Below, in pieces: positions 22,460-41,134 of a stretch of 64,000 bases of DNA. Location of the stretch: NCBI RefSeq assembly GCF_001562255.1, contig NZ_CP014301.1:5425501-5489500 (forward strand). The letters are read 5' to 3'. Within the stretch, counting starts at the first letter, position 1, and every line of letters starts with the position of its first letter. The translations under genes and the position numbers were made by a program. The DNA comes from Bosea sp. PAMC 26642 (GTDB lineage Bacteria > Pseudomonadota > Alphaproteobacteria > Rhizobiales > Beijerinckiaceae). The notes below the pieces were generated by a model, which was given only the letters and a program-made list of their open reading frames with translations, had not been told where the DNA came from and ran no database searches.

Positions 22460-23356
22460 ATGCAGATTCGCTACGGCTATCGCATCGAACTCGTCTGCCA
22501 GCAGGAACTCCCGCTGATCACCCTGCTCGACGTTCATCCGTCGCGCCGTCACGACCTGACGCAGCCCGACGACATGGTCGCCACGTCGCTGTTCGATCCC
22601 TCGGTGCAGGTGCCTGTGACGCAGTACCTCGACCAGTTCGGCAACATCTGCCGCAGGCTGATCGCGCCCGTCGGCGGAGTCAGTCTGCAAGCGGAAGGAA
22701 TCATCTACGATTCCGGCGAGCATGATCCGGTGCACCCACACGCTGGGGAGGTTCCGCCTTCGCGCCTGCCGGAAGAGGCGCTCGTCTATCTGTTGGGAAG
22801 CCGCTACTGCGAGACCGACAAACTCTCCGCCCGGGCCTGGAACCTCTTCGGGCATATCGAGCCGGGCTGGCAGCGCATTCAGGCGGTGGTGGATTTCGTC
22901 CACAACCACCTCACCTTCGGTTACAATTTCGCCCGCAGCACCCGCACCGCCGCCGAGGCGTTCGAAGAGCGCGTCGGCGTCTGCCGTGACTTCGCCCATC
23001 TCGCCGTCGCGCTTTGCCGGTGCATGAACATCCCGGCGCGCTACTGCAACGGCTATCTCGGGGATATCGGCGTGCCAAAGGATCCGGCGCCGATGGATTT
23101 CAACGCCTGGTTCGAGGTCTTCCTCGGCGGTCGCTGGTACACTTTCGATGCAAGGCATAACGAGCCCCGCATCGGCCGCGTCGTGATCGCCAGGGGACGG
23201 GATGCCACCGATGTCGCCATGCTGAACTCCTTCGGCCCGCATGGACTGCAGCGCTTCGAGGTCATCACCGAAGAGGTCGAGGAGACCGCTCCCGATCTCG
23301 CCATGGCGACGGCCGGTCGTGCCCAGCACGAGCAGTCGATGGCCCGAGGCCTCTAG
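22460..23356 (+). CDS. Transglutaminase-like family protein
   Basis: 298 aa, cysteine-protease-like fold. N-terminal transglutaminase-associated domain (about 1-100), then the core with AFEERVGVCRDFAHLAVALC, where Cys175 is the nucleophile, and RWYTFDARHNEPRIGRVVIA with Asp230. The position that holds the catalytic His in most members (HAW) is Asn here (FNAWFEVF, about 214-221), so the activity may differ from classic transglutaminases or the usual His may be replaced. No signal peptide seen. Probably first gene of an operon with the lipid kinase (27-bp gap) and the PAP2 phosphatase. A candidate stress promoter lies upstream. Substrate unknown. Confidence 0.85.
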   Translation: MQIRYGYRIELVCQQELPLITLLDVHPSRRHDLTQPDDMVATSLFDPSVQVPVTQYLDQFGNICRRLIAPVGGVSLQAEGIIYDSGEHDPVHPHAGEVPPSRLPEEALVYLLGSRYCETDKLSARAWNLFGHIEPGWQRIQAVVDFVHNHLTFGYNFARSTRTAAEAFEERVGVCRDFAHLAVALCRCMNIPARYCNGYLGDIGVPKDPAPMDFNAWFEVFLGGRWYTFDARHNEPRIGRVVIARGRDATDVAMLNSFGPHGLQRFEVITEEVEETAPDLAMATAGRAQHEQSMARGL

Positions 23357-31184: not shown

Positions 31185-32063
31185 CTATCCGACCGGGATC
31201 ACATCGACCGCGATGCCGATCTTCTGCGAACCGGGGCCGACCAGCACGCCATCCAGCGGCGAGACGTCGGCATAGTCGCGCCCGAAGGCCGTGACGATAT
31301 GGTCGTCGGCGACGATCAGGTCGTTGGTCGGGTCGAGGCCGATCCAGCCGGTCTCCGGACCGCACCACAGCATCACCCAGGCATGGCTGGCATCGGCACC
31401 GGCCAGCCGCTTCTGCCCCGGCGGCGGGATCGTGCGGATATAGCCGCTGACATAGGCCGCCGGCAGGCCCAGTCCCCGCAAGCCCGCGATCATGATATGC
31501 GCGAAATCCTGGCAGACGCCGTGGCGCTCGCGGAAGGCCTCCGCCAGCGGCGTCGAGACCTCCGTCGCATCGGGGTCGTACTCGAAATCATGCCGGATAC
31601 GCGCCATCAGCTCGCTTGCCGCCTCCAGCACCGGACGCAATGGCGAAAAGCTCTTGCGGGCGTAATCGACGACCTCGGCGACGAATGGCACCAGCCGGCT
31701 CGGATACAGATGATGCGTCGGCGAATCCGGCGCGAGGCTGGTCAAGGCCAGTGCAAGTTCACCGACCTCTTCCCAATGGCGCGTCAGGCCGGGGTGGGGC
31801 GGGGCAGGGCGGTCGACCTCGATGCGCGCCCGCATTTCCACCTTGAGCTCGCGATGCGGCTTAGAGATGGTCATCGTCGTCATGCGGTTGCCGAAGAAGC
31901 ACAAGCCGTCGATCCGCTCCGCAGGGCGCGGCGTGATGATGAGTTCGCTCTTGCGCACCCGCTGGCCGCCATCGTCGCGCGGTAGCAGCCGCAGGATGCA
32001 GCGCGCGAAGGGCACCGGGCGGCTGTAGCCGTAGGTCGTGAGATGACGGACGTCGTAGATCAC
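31185..32063 (-). CDS. Transglutaminase family protein (last gene of the ATP-grasp cluster)
   Basis: 292 aa. Bacterial transglutaminase N-terminal domain (about 1-80: MIYDVRHLTTYGYSRPVPFA) and a transglutaminase core with a full triad: Cys in HGVCQDFAHIMIAGLRGLGL (near 172), His in DASHAWVMLWC (near 226), Asp in WIGLDPTNDLIVADDHIV (near 245). The end KIGIAVDVIPVG matches the family length. No signal peptide. Its start overlaps the stop of the ATP-grasp/alpha-E gene by ATGA, so it is translationally coupled and works with it. Proteins of this group are thought to be peptidases or amide-bond-modifying enzymes for a peptide made by the ATP-grasp partner; the substrate is unknown. Confidence 0.9.
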   Translation of the reverse strand: MIYDVRHLTTYGYSRPVPFARCILRLLPRDDGGQRVRKSELIITPRPAERIDGLCFFGNRMTTMTISKPHRELKVEMRARIEVDRPAPPHPGLTRHWEEVGELALALTSLAPDSPTHHLYPSRLVPFVAEVVDYARKSFSPLRPVLEAASELMARIRHDFEYDPDATEVSTPLAEAFRERHGVCQDFAHIMIAGLRGLGLPAAYVSGYIRTIPPPGQKRLAGADASHAWVMLWCGPETGWIGLDPTNDLIVADDHIVTAFGRDYADVSPLDGVLVGPGSQKIGIAVDVIPVG

Positions 32064-34630
32064 GCGATGCCTGTTAGCCTCGAGCCTTCGGGCCCGCTGT
32101 TTTGCAGGAAATAGCGTTCCGCGATCGCGCTCGACAGTTCCATGAGTAATTGTTCGAGTAGCAGGATGCTAGCGCGGTCAAGCCGCGACGCTTCGGCCGT
32201 CTTGCATTCCGTCGCGAGCTTCAACGCGAAGCGGCGCGGCGCCTCCAGCATTCCATCTTCGTTCAGCGCCGGCAGGTCGGCGATCTCGGTGTTGAGCCGG
32301 TCGATCTGGAACGCGACGGAGCGCGGATTGTAGGGGTCGAGCATGACGAGGTCGAGCACCGGCTGCAGGCTCGGCCCCAGCAGATAGCGCGAGCGATAGG
32401 TGATCTGCGAATCCGTCAGATCGAGCAGCGCGTCGAGCCCGTCGGTGGGTGCCGTCGTCTCGGCGAAATGGCGGGCGAAGCGGCAGGTCGCGACGCCGCG
32501 CTCGATGCGCCGGCCGATATCGAGGAAGCGCCAGCCCGGCCCGCGAACCATGTTCTCCTGGCTGAGCCCGGAGAAGGCGGCGAGCGTCTTCAGCGCGCGG
32601 TCGGCGACCTCGTAGACCTCGCCCTCGCTCGGCTGGCGGCCGGGCTCCAGCGTCAATTGCCGTTGCAGGTCGCCGAACAGCCGCCATGCATCGATCGAGA
32701 GCCGTTCGCGGATGACCGAGGCCGTGCGCCGCGCCTCGCCGACATTGGCCCGCGCCGAGCCGTATTCGGCCGCGTCGTAGAGCGCCGAAGTCGCCTGCGC
32801 CAGCACGGGCGAGCCCTTCGTACCGGCAAGACCACGCGCTGCCGCGGCCTTCGCCGCTGCGCCCTTGGGCGAGGGGGCCGCGCCCCATGCCACCAGGAGA
32901 CTGGCCAGACGGCGCACCGTGTCGGGCCGTGACGGGTTGGTCGTGTCGGCATCGATCAGTCGGCCGAGCAGCGCGCGCACCAGCCGCAGCATCGCCTCAG
33001 TCCGTTCGAGGTAGCGCCCAAGCCAGAACAGGTTGTCGGCGGCTCGGCTCGGCAGGGTCCCGACGAGGCGGCGGATCGCGATCCGGTCGCTCGCCGGCAG
33101 CAGCGTTACCTGTTCCACCGGCGCGTCCGACGTCACCCAGACATCGCTCGAGCGGACGCCGCTTCTCATGCTGACGGCGCGGGCATCGGGTTCGTCCGAA
33201 ATCCGGCAGAAGCCGCCGGGCATCACCTTCCAGCCATCTGGCGTAGCGGCCGCGAAGACGCGCAGCGTCACCGGCCTGGGCTGCAGCCGGCCGTTCTGGA
33301 AGACCGGCATGGTCGATAGCCGCACGATCTCCTGCCCGACATAGTCCATCCCGCGCGCTTCGATCCGGGCGCGAAGCTCCGCGCGGTCGGCCGCCGGCAA
33401 CTCGCCTGCCAGGACGGGATTCATGTCGAGGCCGCCGCCGGCCGCACGGAAGGCGGGCGCAATGCTCATCTGGTCGAGCCGATCGAGCACGGCGGCGCGC
33501 TCGCGCGGCTGGCCGCACCACCAGGTTGCGACGTTGGGCAGGATCATTTCCTCGCCGAGCAGGCTTTTGCCCAGCGCTGGCAGGAAGCCCATCAAGGCTC
33601 GTGCCTCGACCACGCCGGAGCCGAGACCATTGGCGACATGGACACTTCCCTGCCGCACCGCCTGGACCAGCCCGGCGACGCCCAGAGCGGAGCGGGCGTT
33701 GAGTTCGAGCGGGTCGGAGAAATCGCCGTCGATGCGCCGCCAGATCACGTCGGCGCGCTTGGGGCCGGCGATTGTGCGGACATGGATGCGTCCGCCGCGC
33801 ATCATCAGATCGCCGCCCTCGACCAGCAGGAAGCCGAGATAGCGCGCCAGATAGGCCTGCTCGAAATAGCTTTCGTTGAGCGGGCCGGGCGTCAGCAGGC
33901 AGATGCGCGGCTCCACGCGTTTGGACCCTGCGACGAGGCCGGCGCGAAAACCCTGGAAGAAGGCCGCCAGCCGCTCGACATTCATCGTCCGGAACAGGTC
34001 GGGGAAGGCGCGTGCCAGCGCCAGCCGGTTCTCCAGCGCGTAGCCCGCGCCCGAGGGCGCCTGCGTCCGGTCGCCGAGCACCCACCAACGCCCGTCCGGT
34101 CCGCGTCCGAGATCGGCCGCGTAGAGTTGCAGGCTGCCGCCGCCCGGCGCGCCCTGCAGCGGCCGCAGGTAATCGGGGCTGCCCGTCACGACGGAGGCCG
34201 GCAGCAGACCGCTCGCGATCGTCTTGGCCGGGCCGTAGATGTCGTCGAGCAGGGTCGAGAGCAGTTGCGCGCGCTGCGCGACGCCGGCAGCGATCACGCT
34301 CCATTCCGCGCCGGTCAGCACCAGCGGCACATGGCTCAGCGGCCAGGCGCGCTCGCCGGCCTGCGGGTCGTTGTCGTCGAGATCGCCATGGACGCGGTAG
34401 GAGACGCCGGTATCGTGGACATGGCGGTCGGCCAGGCCGAAACGCTGATTCAACTCGTCCGGGGACAGCGAGCTCCATTCCATCAGGAACGGGTCCCAAT
34501 GCGGGCGGATCGCGCCGTCCTGGTCCATGAACTCGTCATAAGCGCCCGGCAGCGGCCGATAGCCGGCCAGCAGGGCGTTGCGCCGCTCCGCTTTCCCGCG
34601 CATCGACGATGATCGGCCCTGCAACGCCAT
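32060..34630 (-). CDS. Circularly permuted type 2 ATP-grasp protein fused to alpha-E domain
   Basis: 856-aa fusion. Residues about 20-490 form the circularly permuted ATP-grasp unit: YDEFMDQDGAIRPHWDPFLM, ICLLTPGPLNESYFEQAYLA, RYLGFLLVEGGDLMMRGGRI and IWRRIDGDFSDPLELNARSA near 295. The alpha-E helical domain begins near 525 with LPSRAADNLFWLGRYLERTE and continues to the C-terminus (MVRGPGWRFLDIGRRIERG). In many bacteria these are two adjacent genes; here they are one. ATP-grasp enzymes join a carboxylate to an amine, so this probably ligates a peptide, amino acid or amide. Start 34630 lies 9 bp after the preceding gene. Confidence 0.92.
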   Translation of the reverse strand: MALQGRSSSMRGKAERRNALLAGYRPLPGAYDEFMDQDGAIRPHWDPFLMEWSSLSPDELNQRFGLADRHVHDTGVSYRVHGDLDDNDPQAGERAWPLSHVPLVLTGAEWSVIAAGVAQRAQLLSTLLDDIYGPAKTIASGLLPASVVTGSPDYLRPLQGAPGGGSLQLYAADLGRGPDGRWWVLGDRTQAPSGAGYALENRLALARAFPDLFRTMNVERLAAFFQGFRAGLVAGSKRVEPRICLLTPGPLNESYFEQAYLARYLGFLLVEGGDLMMRGGRIHVRTIAGPKRADVIWRRIDGDFSDPLELNARSALGVAGLVQAVRQGSVHVANGLGSGVVEARALMGFLPALGKSLLGEEMILPNVATWWCGQPRERAAVLDRLDQMSIAPAFRAAGGGLDMNPVLAGELPAADRAELRARIEARGMDYVGQEIVRLSTMPVFQNGRLQPRPVTLRVFAAATPDGWKVMPGGFCRISDEPDARAVSMRSGVRSSDVWVTSDAPVEQVTLLPASDRIAIRRLVGTLPSRAADNLFWLGRYLERTEAMLRLVRALLGRLIDADTTNPSRPDTVRRLASLLVAWGAAPSPKGAAAKAAAARGLAGTKGSPVLAQATSALYDAAEYGSARANVGEARRTASVIRERLSIDAWRLFGDLQRQLTLEPGRQPSEGEVYEVADRALKTLAAFSGLSQENMVRGPGWRFLDIGRRIERGVATCRFARHFAETTAPTDGLDALLDLTDSQITYRSRYLLGPSLQPVLDLVMLDPYNPRSVAFQIDRLNTEIADLPALNEDGMLEAPRRFALKLATECKTAEASRLDRASILLLEQLLMELSSAIAERYFLQNSGPEGSRLTGIA

Positions 34631-34639
34631 GTTTTGCGT

Positions 34640-37600
34640 CTACACTCCTGATGGACGCCGCAAATCCAGTGTGAGCGGGAATTCGGCGCTGCGCTCTTCG
34701 GGCGGAATCGCCAGCGCGCCGGGACTATGACCGATCGCTTCGAAACGTGCGAGCCGGCGCGCCTCCGCTTCGTAAGAATTCACGGGAGGAGTTTCGTAGC
34801 TGCGACCTCCGGGATGGGCGACATGGTAGACGCAACCGCCGAGCGAGCGCCCGACCCAGGTGTCGACGATGTCGAAGGTCAGCGGCGAATGCACGGGAAT
34901 CGTCGGGTGCAGGCCCGATGCGGGCTGCCAGGCCTTGAAGCGCACGGCGGCGATGCTCTCGCCCGTCGTCCCCGCCGGCGTCATCGGCAGGCGGCGTCCG
35001 TTGCAGGTGATGACGTGCCGGCCGGGAACGATCCCCTTCGCCTTGACCTGGAGGCGTTCGACCGAGGAATCGACATAGCGCACCGTGCCGCCGATCGCGC
35101 CTTCCTCGCCCATCACATGCCAGGGCTCCAGCGCCTGCCGGATCTCGATCTCGACGCCGCCATGCTCGACCTTGCCGTAGAACGGGAAGCGGAACTCGGC
35201 CTGCGCCTCGAACCAGACCGGATCGAAGGCATAGCCGGCGCGTCCGAGATCGGAGAGCACGTCCTGGAAATCCTGCCAGACCATCTCCGGCAGCATGAAG
35301 CGGTCGTGAAGCGTCGTGCCCCAGCGCACCAGACTCCCCGCCTGCGGCTCGCGCCAGAACCATGAGACCAGCGCCCGGATCAGAAGCTGCTGCGCCAGCG
35401 ACATCCGCGCATCCGGCGGCATTTCGAAGGAGCGGAACTCGATCAGCCCGAGCCGCCCCGTAGGCCCATCGGGCGAATACAGCTTGTCGATGCAGATCTC
35501 GGTGCGGTGCGTATTGCCCGAGACATCGACCAGCAGGTTGCGGAACAGCCGGTCGACCAGCCAGAGCGGTATCGAGGGTTGGCCGGGTCCCGGCACTTGT
35601 GCCAGCGCGATCTCCAGCTCGTAGAGCTGGTCGAACCGCGCCTCGTCGATGCGCGGCGCCTGGCTCGTCGGGCCGATGAACAGCCCCGAGAACAGGAAGG
35701 ACAGCGAAGGGTGCCGGTTCCAGTACAGGATGATGCTCTTGAGAAGGTCCGGCCGCCGCAGGAAGGGTGAGTCGGGCGGCGTCACGCCTCCCAGCACGAC
35801 ATGGTTGCCGCCGCCGGTGCCGGTGTGGCGACCATCGACCATGAATTTCTCGGCACAGAGCCGCGACTGCCGCGCTTCCTCATAGACGCCGCGCGTGATC
35901 TCGACCGCCTCGCGCCAGTTCTTGGCCGGATGGATATTGACCTCGATCACGCCGGGGTCGGGCGTCACCTTGATCACGTTCAGCCGCGGATCGCTGGGCG
36001 GCGAATAGCCCTCGATATGGACGGGCAAACCGAGATCCTGCGCCACGCCTTCGACGCTGCCGATCAGTTCGAGATAATCTTCGAGCTTCTCGACCGGCGG
36101 CAGGAAGACGCAAAGAACCTTGTCGCGGACCTCGAGGCTGATCGCGGTGCGCACATGTTCGCCGCCGATCTCCTGCTCGGTACGGTCCTGAATGTGACCT
36201 TCACCGGCGACATCGACCGAACGCGACATCTGCCGGGAGGCCGGGGCGTGCTCGGGCGGAAACGCATGGACCGGCGGTGCCGCCTGAGAGCCGCTCACGG
36301 CGACAGGTGCCGGGGCACCGGCCGGAGCACCCGCTCGCGGCAGCGGCCCGCGCGGCTCCATCGGATCCTGCGGATGGATATGTGGGAACTCGTCCTTCGG
36401 CACCACCGGCAGCGAGCCGAGCGGCAGCCTGTAGCCGACGGGCGAATCGCCGGGCACCAAAAAGAGCTTGCCCCGCCGCAGCGTCCACTTCTCGGAGCGC
36501 CAGCGCCGGTCGCCGGCCTGCGACTGCCAGCGCTGAACCGGGATGACATAGCCACGCGGCTTGCCAAGTCCCAGCTGGAACACCTGCGCCATGCGCGCCC
36601 GCTCTTCCGGGTCAGCGAGGCGCGGGTCGAGCGGATCGACATTGTCGGGAAGCTGCGCCTCCTTGAGCAGCCAGTGCCCGGTATCTTCGTAGGCCGGCAG
36701 GACGTAGTCGGCGCCAAGCCCGAGCTTCTCCGAGAGCCCCGCCGCCAGTGCTTCGGCATCGGCGATGGTCGAGCCGGCTTCGAGCTCACGGTCGCCCCCG
36801 GTCGCGGCGCCCGGCTCGCGCGCGATCAGCGCCGCGTCGCGCCAGATCGGCTCGCCATCCTCGCGCCAGTACAACGCGAAGGCCCAGCGCGGCAGGCTTT
36901 CGCCTGGATACCATTTGCCTTGTCCGTAATGCAGCATCCCGCCCGGTGCGAAGCGCTCGCGCAGCTTGCGGATCATCACATCGGCGCGCTGGCGCTTGGT
37001 GGGGCCGACGGCGGCGATATTCCATTCCTCGCCGGTCTGGTCGTCGATCGAGACGAAGGTCGGCTCGCCGCCCATGGTCAGGCGGACATCCTGTGCCTTC
37101 AGATCCGCTTCGACCTGCTCGCCCAGCGCATCGAGCTTCGTCCAGGATTCGTCGGAGAAGGGCAGGGTGATGCGCGGCACCTCGTGCACGCGCTCGACAC
37201 TCATATGGAAATCGAAGGTCGTCTCGGCGTAGCTCGCAATGCCCGAGACCGGCGCGGCCGAACGGTAATGCGGCGTCGCCGCCAGCGGCAGATGCCCCTC
37301 GCCGGTGAGCAGACCCGAGGTCGGGTCGAGCCCGATCCAGCCGGCGCCGGCAATGTAGACCTCGCACCAGGCATGCAGGTCGGTGAAGTCCTTGTCCGTG
37401 CCGCGCGGACCCTCCAGCGGGTCGATGTCGGCCTTCATCTGGATCAGGTAGCCCGAGACGAAACGCGCCGCGAAGCCGAGATGGCGCATGATCTGGACCA
37501 GCAGCCAACTCGTGTCGCGGCAGGAGCCGGATTTGATCGCCAGCGTATGCTCGGGCTCCTGCACGCCCGGCTCCATGCGGATGCCATAGGCGATGCCGGC

Positions 37601-38059
37601 CGCCAGGCGTGCGTTGAGATCAACGATGAAGTTGACGGTGTTCGTCGGCTCGCGCGGGATCGTCTTGAGATAGGCCTCGAGCAGCTCTCCCGGCGGCTCG
37701 GTGACGAGATAGGGGGCGAGCTCGGCCCGCAATTCCTCGGGATAGGCGAAAGGAAAGATCTCCGCATCGGTCTCGACGAAGAAGTCGAACGGATTGATGA
37801 TCGACAGCTCGGTGACGAGATCGACCTCGATCCGGAACTCCTTCAACGGCTCCGGAAAGACGAACCGCGCCAGCCAGTTGCCGCTCGGATCCTGCTGCCA
37901 GTTCACGAAATGCTCGGCGGGCGTAACCTTCAGCGAATAGCTGTTGATCGCGGCCCGGCAATGCGGCGCGGGCCGCAGGCGGATGATCTGGGGCCCCAGC
38001 GTGACGGGACGGTCATAGCTGTAATGGGTGACGTGATTGAGCGCGGCGATGATGGCCAA
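34640..38059 (-). CDS. Large transglutaminase-like protein with DUF2126
   Basis: 1139 aa, first gene of the three-gene operon. Transglutaminase N-terminal domain ([20 protein letters not shown]), then a transglutaminase core (about 165-290) with Cys in [20 protein letters not shown] near 178, His in [20 protein letters not shown] and the Asp at its end. From about 320 onward is DUF2126, including [40 protein letters not shown] and [20 protein letters not shown]. From memory, DUF2126 has been grouped with amidoligases (COOH-NH2 ligases), so one protein may both form and cut an amide bond. A proline/alanine-rich linker (about 560-620) separates the halves. Confidence 0.9.
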
Positions 38060-38314: not shown

Positions 38315-39904
38315 ATGCGTCACCTTGCGAAACTGATGGCGGTATCCGCCTTCACGGCCCTGATGGCATCGACGGCGATGGCCCAGACGCCGAAGGACAC
38401 GATCGTCATGGCCAAGCAGATCGACGACATCATCACGCTCGATCCCGGCGAGGCCTTCGAGTTTTCGGGCGTCGAGGTCGGCGCCAATGTCTATGACAAG
38501 CTGATGGGCGTCGATCTGACCAAGGGCAATGCGCTGGTCGGCGAACTCGCCACCAGCTACACCGTCAGCCCCGACAACCTGACCTATACCTTCAAGCTCC
38601 GGCCCGGCGTGAAATTCCATTCCGGCAACCCGGTGACGGCCGCCGACGTGGTCTATTCGATCCAGCGCGCGGTGACGATGAACAAGTCGCCCGGCTTCAT
38701 CCTGACCCAGTTCGGCTTCAGCAAGGACAACGTGCTGGAGAAGGTCAAGGCGACCGACGACGCTACGGTCGTGATGACCGTCTCGCAGCCTTTCGCGCCG
38801 ACGTTCTTCCTGAACTGCCTGACCTCGGGCGTCGCCTCGGTCGTCGATTCCAAGCTGGTCAAGGCCAATGAGAAGGACGGTGACTGGGGCAATGGCTGGC
38901 TGAAGCTGAACTCGGCCGGTTCCGGCGCCTACAAGGTCCGAGCCTATCGTCCCAACGAGCAGTATGCGCTCGACGCCAACGAGTCCTGGTACAAGGGCGC
39001 GCCCAAGAACAAGCGCGTCATCGTGCGCCATGTCGCCGAGCCGGCCTCGCAGCGCCTGCTGCTGGAGAAGGGCGACATCGACATGGCCCGCAACCTGTCG
39101 AAGGACCAACTCGCGGCGGTCAAGTCCAACAAGGACATCGAGATCGTCCAGGGCGACAAGGGCTATATCCTCTATCTCGGCCTGAACTCGAAGAACCCCA
39201 ACCTCGCCAAGCCCGAGGTTCGTGAGGCTCTGAAATATCTGGTCGACTACGACTCGATCGAGAAGAATATCGTCGAGGGCACCTATAAGGGCCACGAATC
39301 CTTCCTGCCCAACGGCTTCCTCGGCGCGATCACCGACAAGCCCTACAAGTTCGATCTGGCCAAGGCCAAGGAACTGCTGGCCAAGGCCGGCCTCCCCAAC
39401 GGCTTCACCGTCACCATGGACGTCCGCTCGGTCAACCCGATCACCGACATCGCCCAGGCGGTCCAGTCGAGCTGGGGCCAAGCCGGCATCAAGCTCGAAC
39501 TGATTCCCGGCGACGGCAAGCAGACGCTGACCAAGTACCGCGCCCGCACCCACGACATCTATATCGGCCAGTGGGGCCCGGACTATCTCGACCCGCACAC
39601 CAATGCCGAGACCTTCGCCATCAACGAGAACAACGGCGAGGACGCCAAGTCGAAGACGCTGGCCTGGCGCAATGCCTGGGACATCCCGGACATGACCAAG
39701 GTGACGCAGGCCAACGTGCTCGAGACCGACGCCGCCAAGCGCGCCGCCGTCTACGGCACGCTGCAGCGCGAGCACCAGAAGATCTCGCCCTTCGTCATCA
39801 TGTTCCAGCAGGTCGAGGTCTCGGCCGATCGCAAGGGCGTCACCGGCTGGGTGATCGGACCGAGCTCCGACACCAATTTCTACGCCCCGATCGCCAAGAA
39901 CTGA
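38315..39904 (+). CDS. Peptide-type ABC transporter substrate-binding protein (family 5)
   Basis: Periplasmic binding protein, 529 aa. Start ATG 38315 (MRHLAKLMAVSAFTALMAST) has GGGGA in front and a Sec signal cleaved after AMA; ATG 38303 is possible. Family 5 motifs: GVEVGANVYDKLMGVDLTKG, NLTYTFKLRPGVKFHSGNPV with TAADVVYSIQRAV, and KNPNLAKPEVREALKYLVDY. It ends with SFVIMFQQVEVSAD-type KISPFVIMFQQVEVSADRKG. First gene of importer I, followed by a terminator-like hairpin and a repeat before the permeases, so the binding protein may be made in excess. Ligand (peptide, opine or similar) unknown. Confidence 0.9.
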   Translation: MRHLAKLMAVSAFTALMASTAMAQTPKDTIVMAKQIDDIITLDPGEAFEFSGVEVGANVYDKLMGVDLTKGNALVGELATSYTVSPDNLTYTFKLRPGVKFHSGNPVTAADVVYSIQRAVTMNKSPGFILTQFGFSKDNVLEKVKATDDATVVMTVSQPFAPTFFLNCLTSGVASVVDSKLVKANEKDGDWGNGWLKLNSAGSGAYKVRAYRPNEQYALDANESWYKGAPKNKRVIVRHVAEPASQRLLLEKGDIDMARNLSKDQLAAVKSNKDIEIVQGDKGYILYLGLNSKNPNLAKPEVREALKYLVDYDSIEKNIVEGTYKGHESFLPNGFLGAITDKPYKFDLAKAKELLAKAGLPNGFTVTMDVRSVNPITDIAQAVQSSWGQAGIKLELIPGDGKQTLTKYRARTHDIYIGQWGPDYLDPHTNAETFAINENNGEDAKSKTLAWRNAWDIPDMTKVTQANVLETDAAKRAAVYGTLQREHQKISPFVIMFQQVEVSADRKGVTGWVIGPSSDTNFYAPIAKN

Positions 39905-39922
39905 GCCCCGACAGCAGCAAGG

Positions 39923-39956
39923 ACCCGCCCAGCCGCGAAGGCTGCGGCGGGTTTCT
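39923..39956 (+). terminator. Hairpin with T-run after the binding-protein gene of importer I
   Basis: ACCCGCCCAGCC (39923-39934) pairs with GGCTGCGGCGGGT (39940-39952) with a one-base bulge, then TTTCTTGC. Inside the operon it could act as an attenuating terminator or as a 3' stabiliser of the binding-protein mRNA. Confidence 0.6.
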
Positions 39957-39980
39957 TGCTTTCTTTCGGATTGAGACTTT

Positions 39981-40036
39981 CACAGCCTCATCCTTCGAGA
40001 CGCGATCTTCGATCGCTCCTCAGGATGAGGGCTGTG
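39981..40036. repeat. Palindromic repeat, CCTCATCCT type
   Basis: CACAGCCTCATCCT (39981-39994) and AGGATGAGGGCTGTG (40022-40036) are inverted copies with a single-base bulge around a 27-nt centre that itself holds GCGATCTTCGATCGC (40002-40016). It lies between the binding protein and permease genes of importer I. Elements of this kind recur in Hyphomicrobiales genomes. Confidence 0.65.
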
Positions 40037-40072
40037 GGATCGACCAGACAAGAACAACAAGAAGCGGATACG

Positions 40073-41134
40073 ATGGCGGGCAAGACGGAGACGGTGGCGG
40101 GCAAAAGCTGGGCGCACCATGGCGTGCGCTGGGGTAAGCTGCTCTGGCGCGAGCTAACCACGGTCGCGATCACCATCTTCGGCCTGCTGCTGATCACCTT
40201 CTTCATCGCCCGCGTCATCCCGATCGACCCTGTGCTCGCGGTGGTCGGCGACAATGCCCGTCCCGACGTTTACGAGAACGCCCGCATCGCGCTCGGCCTC
40301 GACAAGCCGCTCTGGCAGCAATTCGCTGTTTATGTCGGCAAGGTCTTCACCGGCGATCTCGGCCGCTCGGTCCTGACCTCCAACACCGTGGTCGACGACA
40401 TCAGGCGCGTCTTCCCGGCGACGTTGGAACTCGCGACGTTGGGCACCCTGATCGGCTGCCTGCTTGGCATTCCGCTCGGCGTGCTGGCTGCGGTCTACCA
40501 GGGCCGCTGGCCTGATCAGGTCGCACGCGTCATCGGCCTGTTCGGCTATTCGATCCCGGTCTTCTGGCTCGGGCTGATGGGTTTGCTGCTGTTTTATGCC
40601 AAGCTCGGCTGGGTCGGCGGGCCGGGCCGCGCCGGCGTCGCCTTTCAGGATCTGGTCACGCCGATCACCGGCATTCTGGTGATCGACTCCGCGATCGAGG
40701 GCGATTGGGAGGCGTTCCGCGACGCCTGGTCCCATCTCATCTTGCCCTCGGCCGTGCTCGGCATCCTCAGCGTCGCCTATATCAGCCGGATGACGCGCAG
40801 CTTCATGATCACCGAGTTGCAGCAGCAATACGTCATCGCGGCCCGCGTGAAGGGCCTCTCTGAATTCCGCGTCGTCTGGCGTCACGCCATGCACAACGCC
40901 TTCGTGCCGCTGGTGACGGTGATCGCCGTCTCCTACATGCACCTGCTCGAAGGCTCGGTGCTGACCGAGACGATCTTCGCCTGGCCGGGACTGGGCCGCT
41001 ATCTCACCCACTCCCTGCTCAACGCCGACATGAATGCCGTGCTCGGCGGCACGCTGGTGATCGGTGCCGTCTTCATCGGCGTCAACCTGCTGTCCGACAT
41101 GCTCGGCCGGCTGGTCGATCCCCGGACGCGATGA
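40073..41134 (+). CDS. Peptide-type ABC transporter permease (DppB class)
   Basis: Inner-membrane permease, 353 aa from ATG 40073 (MAGKTETVAGKSWAHHGVRW). First helix LTTVAITIFGLLLITFFIAR; IALGLDKPLWQQFAVYVGKV; FTGDLGRSVLTSNTVVDDIR; the EAA region ARVKGLSEFRVVWRHAMHNA near 265; GSVLTETIFAWPGLGRYLTH. The N-terminal 20 residues are an extra hydrophilic extension before helix 1. The frame is open upstream through the repeat, so an earlier start cannot be excluded, but the protein-like part begins here. Confidence 0.9.
   Translation: MAGKTETVAGKSWAHHGVRWGKLLWRELTTVAITIFGLLLITFFIARVIPIDPVLAVVGDNARPDVYENARIALGLDKPLWQQFAVYVGKVFTGDLGRSVLTSNTVVDDIRRVFPATLELATLGTLIGCLLGIPLGVLAAVYQGRWPDQVARVIGLFGYSIPVFWLGLMGLLLFYAKLGWVGGPGRAGVAFQDLVTPITGILVIDSAIEGDWEAFRDAWSHLILPSAVLGILSVAYISRMTRSFMITELQQQYVIAARVKGLSEFRVVWRHAMHNAFVPLVTVIAVSYMHLLEGSVLTETIFAWPGLGRYLTHSLLNADMNAVLGGTLVIGAVFIGVNLLSDMLGRLVDPRTR

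Follow-up and report, generated by a model that had tools for sequence, protein, structure and literature searches.

A transglutaminase and ATP-grasp operon of Bosea sp. PAMC 26642 with a probable pseudo-ligase

We analysed a three-gene operon in a 64,000-nucleotide stretch of Bosea sp. PAMC 26642 (contig NZ_CP014301.1, positions 5,425,501 to 5,489,500; the window). The operon encodes a transglutaminase joined to a DUF2126 domain (gene 1), a circularly permuted ATP-grasp domain fused to an Alpha-E domain (gene 2), and a second transglutaminase (gene 3). We conclude that the operon belongs to a module that is already known and found widely, and that its annotation conceals what looks like a conserved pseudo-ligase. 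The reading we lean towards is a conserved module for amide bonds: DUF2126 would make the bond, and the ATP-grasp part of gene 2 would be a pseudo-ligase. The module was reportedly predicted by Iyer et al. in 2009.

Active-site residues of the fused ATP-grasp domain

Gene 2 matches the profiles of circularly permuted ATP-grasp proteins (CP_ATPgrasp_2, PF14403, 462 bits) and Alpha-E (233 bits), and its ATP-grasp part retains the glutathione-synthetase-type fold. The ExN metal residues are replaced by G186 and R188, and A391 stands in the place of the ATP lysine at the glycine-rich loop. The host also encodes a separate ATP-grasp protein, which reads LEDNARTPSG and VVKEVNGSGGYG where the fused copy reads LGDRTQAPSG and SIAPAFRAAGGG. 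The putative glutathionylspermidine synthase 3n6x keeps LEDN, VVKEVQGSGGYG, and PRHVDLRP, all three of which are lost from gene 2.

The same difference separates the two groups of relatives. When 107 fused and 43 separate ATP-grasp domains are aligned, the E and N of ExN, the ATP lysine, and the H of PRHVD are each kept in 43/43 separate domains, whereas the fused domains keep them in 1/107, 0/107, 4/107, and 1/107 cases, respectively. Twenty further loci from a phylum sample, picked for module genes being present or close, contributed 19 fused and 15 separate domains. ExN and the ATP lysine are present in all 15 separate domains; among the fused ones, the N of ExN occurs in 0/19, the E in 1/19, and the lysine in 8/19. 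The frames of 126 fused and 58 separate proteins were also searched for patterns without alignment. E.N ahead of the PSG motif occurs in none of the fused and all of the separate proteins (0/126 vs 58/58), the glycine-rich ATP loop in 0/126 vs 57/58, and RHxDLRP in 0/126 vs 58/58. A new motif of the D-R-x-Q-x-P type is present in 99/126 fused proteins and 1/58 separate ones. A looser ExN pattern, which matched one of the 126 fused proteins, was rejected, as the match sits ahead of the domain.

The fused proteins form a single clade under purifying selection, and the domain therefore looks like a conserved pseudo-ligase. Such a conserved dead ligase seems new, with no mention of it in the literature searched, which excluded Iyer et al. 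2009. The fusion itself is no rarity: of 8000 database candidates that were scored, 7999 match the gene 2 protein, in a search whose length limits also let in some unfused proteins. The best database relative, from Bosea sp. LjRoot9, is 90% identical. An earlier note on this DNA had cast the 856-residue protein as the bond maker and had tied this role to the presence of ATP- and Mg-binding residues; judged by the sequences, these are largely missing, and the assignment is not supported. Treating ATP-grasp and Alpha-E as a single working unit is reasonable, yet it is the fused version that looks inactive, and the intact ATP-grasp and Alpha-E proteins are encoded by separate neighbouring genes.

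DUF2126 as candidate ligase and the proposed mechanism

With no apparent catalytic site in the fused ATP-grasp domain, the bond maker would be a different protein of the operon. Gene 1 matches Bact_transglu_N, Transglut_core, and DUF2126 (PF09899, 1325 bits). DUF2126 is the likelier active ligase, because it adopts a glutamine-synthetase-like fold in the gene-1 structure model and its candidate catalytic residues, assigned by motif order (E332, E706, N708, H753, R852, E874, and R876), are invariant in 104/104 sequences, a count that omits 14 of 118 frames as short or cut. A bond-forming role of DUF2126 had been bracketed as an aside in the earlier note; fold and invariant residues make it the better candidate. 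The literature searched contained neither biochemistry of amide-bond formation by DUF2126 nor the name DUF2126. The Pup ligase and depupylase (PafA/Dop), which are linked with the proteasome, presumably share the glutamine-synthetase-like fold with DUF2126. Dop (5lrt) is among the weak matches of the gene-1 model, a likeness by fold with no sequence relation shown.

Both transglutaminase cores contain Cys, His, and Asp, as had been noted before: the triad of gene 1 is kept in 104/104 full-length relatives, and that of gene 3 (Bact_transglu_N and Transglut_core, PF01841) is C184/H227/D244. The Rlo operon combines retropepsin, transglutaminase-fold, and ATP-grasp genes; it differs in the families involved, as RloC is similar to RimK and RloB is a membrane transglutaminase without activity (PMC12239564; for this and all papers cited by accession, statements refer to the available parts of the text), whereas genes 1 and 3 each keep the complete triad. 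Those parts of PMC12239564, PMC12096838, PMC8407117, PMC3710099, PMC10318531, and PMC5919673 have no direct bearing on the operon.

We propose that the fused protein would bind a substrate or partner and present it via the attached Alpha-E bundle, forming no bonds itself. Formation of the ATP-dependent bond would fall to DUF2126 in gene 1, possibly together with the intact ATP-grasp and Alpha-E proteins whose genes lie at another place in the genome, and the amide would be hydrolysed or transferred by the two transglutaminase-fold enzymes. A protein tag or a small peptide may be the substrate. The make-and-trim system suggested earlier survives as an amidoligase-like fold placed beside amide-cleaving or amide-transferring folds, without the fused ATP-grasp domain as the maker.

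The tight arrangement of three open frames on the minus strand, with the sizes in Table 1, agrees with the earlier description. Genes 1 and 2 are spaced by 9 base pairs (34639..34631). Genes 2 and 3 overlap by four bases that read GTGA (GTG start, TGA stop) rather than the ATGA first described.

Table 1 Features of the operon and its divergent neighbour (window coordinates)
Feature	Position	Strand	Details
Gene 1, transglutaminase-DUF2126	38059..34640	minus	1139 aa, TTG start, open frame
Gene 1 transglutaminase core, residues 136-246	37322..37654	minus	C180/H229/D245
DUF2126 domain of gene 1, residues 278-1134	34658..37228	minus	Candidate active ligase, glutamine-synthetase-like fold
Gene 2, circularly permuted ATP-grasp + Alpha-E fusion	34630..32060	minus	856 aa, ATG start
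ExN metal motif site of gene 2	34067..34075	minus	G186-D187-R188; E-D-N in 58/58 separate ATP-grasps
ATP lysine and glycine-rich loop site, gene 2 residues 388-404	33419..33469	minus	MSIAPAFRAAGGG...; A391 in place of lysine
Alpha-E domain of gene 2, residues 526-841	32108..33055	minus	Two ER motifs retained: E542/R543, E710/R711
Gene 3, transglutaminase	32063..31185	minus	292 aa, GTG start
Peptide-type ABC transporter (SBP_bac_5, BPD_transp_1)	38315-41134	plus	Starts divergently from operon

Conservation of the module and its relation to the Anbu operon

The association of the three genes is conserved. Among 80 named fused-protein loci, which were taken as the top 80 out of 587 confirmed stretches and are biased toward close relatives, a gene-3-type transglutaminase is present in 79 and DUF2126 in 67, and the full order transglutaminase-DUF2126, fused protein, transglutaminase in 60. 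A contig end cuts DUF2126 in five of the named loci, the domain is interrupted in one, and one locus stops before the last gene. Thirteen of the 80 have no visible DUF2126, at least two of them (L150 and L152) being cut by a contig end. Of the other genes in the window, those tested (with starts at 21-52 kb) are found in no more than 2/80 loci. Overall, 123/125 loci with the fused gene also contain a gene-3-type transglutaminase, and the remaining two (L060 and L176) end at contig ends. A 126th fused protein, under the score limit of this count, has a transglutaminase frame overlapping its end, which brings the association to 124/126; the absence of any such association, named earlier as fatal to the operon's interpretation, is thereby contradicted. 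This protein (L064, genome G069), with a frame of 757 residues followed by the overlapping transglutaminase frame, is the most divergent fused ATP-grasp/Alpha-E protein seen. Co-occurrence of these domains has been noted before (PMC3597751). In loci L068 and L116, the DUF2126 genes are broken by stops or a frame change.

Across 190 genomes of the host's class, the separate ATP-grasp occurs in 68, the fused protein in 27, and DUF2126 in 29; species may overlap between these genomes and the named loci, and such duplicates remain in the counts. The separate ATP-grasp accompanies the fused protein in 24/27 genomes and DUF2126 does so in 22/27. The three fused-protein genomes without a separate ATP-grasp (G069, G099, and G127) are 78, 84, and 74% complete. 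Genome G124, in which a contig end truncates the fused gene (L069), is outside the 27 and was counted as a module genome in the tests of transglutaminase loss described below.

Description of the Anbu operon is reportedly to be credited to Valas and Bourne (2008) and Iyer et al. (2009). It consists of ATP-grasp, Alpha-E, transglutaminase, and the Anbu peptidase (PMC5666114, PMC6376114). The operon studied here shares the first three families but lacks Anbu, carries DUF2126, and has its ATP-grasp fused to Alpha-E and stripped of active-site residues. In Yersinia, the separate ATP-grasp of the Anbu operon releases phosphate from ATP, and the available text reports no peptidase activity of Anbu (PMC6376114). 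The host has a canonical Anbu operon with an intact separate ATP-grasp (G000:C1, about 1957000-1961200), approximately 3.5 Mb from the operon studied here in contig coordinates; the identity of its Anbu was confirmed by a match to PDB entry 5loy. No Anbu frame was found in the window by phmmer with the host Anbu. The transglutaminase of the host Anbu operon (L003:9556-10386; G000:C1, about 1959555-1960385) carries Ala in place of the catalytic Cys (GIAQDLAH).

Five class-sample genomes have a Cys-less transglutaminase beside the separate ATP-grasp, with A, Y, S, P, and G at the Cys position, and all five carry the fused module. In class-sample operons with Anbu, the transglutaminase is lost or Cys-less in 9/11 cases with the module vs 1/20 without it (p 2.5e-5), where this and the following p values carry no correction for shared ancestry and the tree shows about nine changes of transglutaminase state and eight of module presence. 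Five of the 68 loci were omitted at contig ends; the 32 loci with no Anbu showed no clear difference (10/14 vs 10/18, p 0.29). In a second sample of 20 genomes, 17 of them from the host's family or order, Cys-less enzymes occur in 2/14 module genomes and 0/5 others; the enzyme of one unclear genome is live, and no Anbu was in range for 4/14 module genomes and the unclear one. A strict rule that presence of the module entails loss of the Anbu-operon transglutaminase is rejected by the 2/14. When the samples are pooled, Cys-less transglutaminases stand beside the separate ATP-grasp in 7/25 module genomes, host included, vs 0/32 others (p 0.002), and operons with Anbu have a lost or Cys-less transglutaminase in 10/21 cases with the module vs 1/25 without, this single case being G091, where a transglutaminase-DUF2126 gene lies next door. 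This complementary loss hints that the two systems share a substrate.

A very divergent transglutaminase with DRATGRELAQML at the Cys region (L097, genome G012) adjoins a separate ATP-grasp; within 6 kb, no Anbu was found. In 14/20 chosen loci of the phylum sample (L179-L197), an intact ATP-grasp/Alpha-E pair, the fused pseudo-ligase, and transglutaminase-DUF2126 are found in one locus, and DUF2126 shares a locus with Anbu in seven loci (L190, L195, L196, L065, L071, L072, and L179). We speculate, with considerable doubt, that two amide-bond systems share labour in one cell. The Anbu operon would contribute a live ATP-grasp as well as a proteasome-like peptidase; the operon studied here would add a glutamine-synthetase-fold ligase, live transglutaminases, and a pseudo-ATP-grasp/Alpha-E substrate receptor. 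Together, they would form a nitrogen-controlled tagging route reminiscent of pupylation and the proteasome, with the pseudo-ligase as specificity factor.

Alternative readings and regulation

Several points weigh against a dead fused ligase replaced by DUF2126. The loss of residues is incomplete, as the E of ExN is present in 2/126 fused proteins and the ATP lysine in 12/126 (4/107 and 8/19), and the acidic position D173 is invariant in 34/34. The conserved residues of the new D-R-x-Q-x-P motif could point to new chemistry. In yeast glutathione synthetase, metal is bound by the acids Asp130, Glu146, Glu386, and Glu442, and in the human enzyme the ATP lysines are Lys305 and Lys364 (PMC2845819). 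We infer that the residues missing from the fused domain match most of these and that D173 is the kept Asp130 position, a mapping that follows motif order and the shared fold, with no residue-level superposition. The gene-1 model is of moderate quality (pLDDT 71.7), and glutamine synthetases rank weakly by Foldseek alone (best E 0.013). DUF2126 is absent from 5/27 fused-protein genomes, so the fused protein does not always come with it. Finally, no specific interactions were found among the Yersinia Anbu operon proteins, according to the available text (PMC6376114).

The regulation of relatives bears on what the module makes. A cluster of Burkholderia cenocepacia, I35_5080-83, contains DUF404/407, DUF403, a transglutaminase, and a large transglutaminase protein (PMC5491218), the last of which may well carry DUF2126. 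Its ATP-grasp and Alpha-E genes are separate, unlike the fusion studied here, and its expression was measured to depend on NtrC and sigma-54 (PMC5491218). With duplicate operons removed, a threshold score of at least 20.4 of 24, and a reversed decoy for comparison, sigma-54-like sites lie upstream of 17/107 transglutaminase-DUF2126 genes (3.9 expected, decoy 3) and 13/57 separate ATP-grasp genes (2.1 expected, decoy 1), an enrichment that fits the reported NtrC control. Relatives probably use the module under nitrogen limitation. These data lend support to another reading, compatible with the others, which we rate as a real possibility just short of even: that under nitrogen limitation the module does not tag proteins but produces a small peptide or a metabolite that stores nitrogen. 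The divergent peptide-type transporter fits this product, but its genes are found in just 2/80 loci, and we rejected it as a partner of the operon. A sigma-54 site at the operon itself was also rejected (best score 15.5 of 24); the best score at the host's Anbu operon is 17.5 of 24. The window contains another transglutaminase-core protein of 298 residues (22460-23356, plus strand), in which Asn occupies the aligned His position (DFNAWFEV) and the Cys is kept.

We consider it unlikely that the fused domain has a regulatory or sensing role, as a subunit of DUF2126 or of the separate ATP-grasp, in which it would still bind a nucleotide or a ligand resembling an acyl phosphate but catalyse nothing. 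Such a role would suit the frequent company of fused and separate genes in class-sample genomes and their presence in one locus in 17/125 loci (14 of the 17 picked partly for closeness), and the arginine that replaces the metal-binding Asn in 95/107 fused domains could neutralise phosphates; the ATP loop is gone, however, and shared ancestry can explain the co-occurrence. Least probable is the earlier proposal of an active fused ligase with a variant active site whose amide bonds the transglutaminases trim: the fully kept fold, the retention of D173, R457, and other positions, the new motif, and the few remaining lysines speak for it, but none of the 126 fused proteins has an intact ExN pair, the ATP loop, or RHxDLRP, each of which is kept by 57 or 58 of 58 paralogues.

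The fused family is common, and database records name it an ATP-grasp protein. Biochemistry planned on the fused ATP-grasp, such as that in the earlier note, would be aimed at the wrong domain. Should the fused protein be a pseudo-ligase, attention shifts to DUF2126, and the intact separate and dead fused paralogues provide a natural, built-in control. If true, the ATP-grasp superfamily would gain a conserved pseudoenzyme from bacteria.

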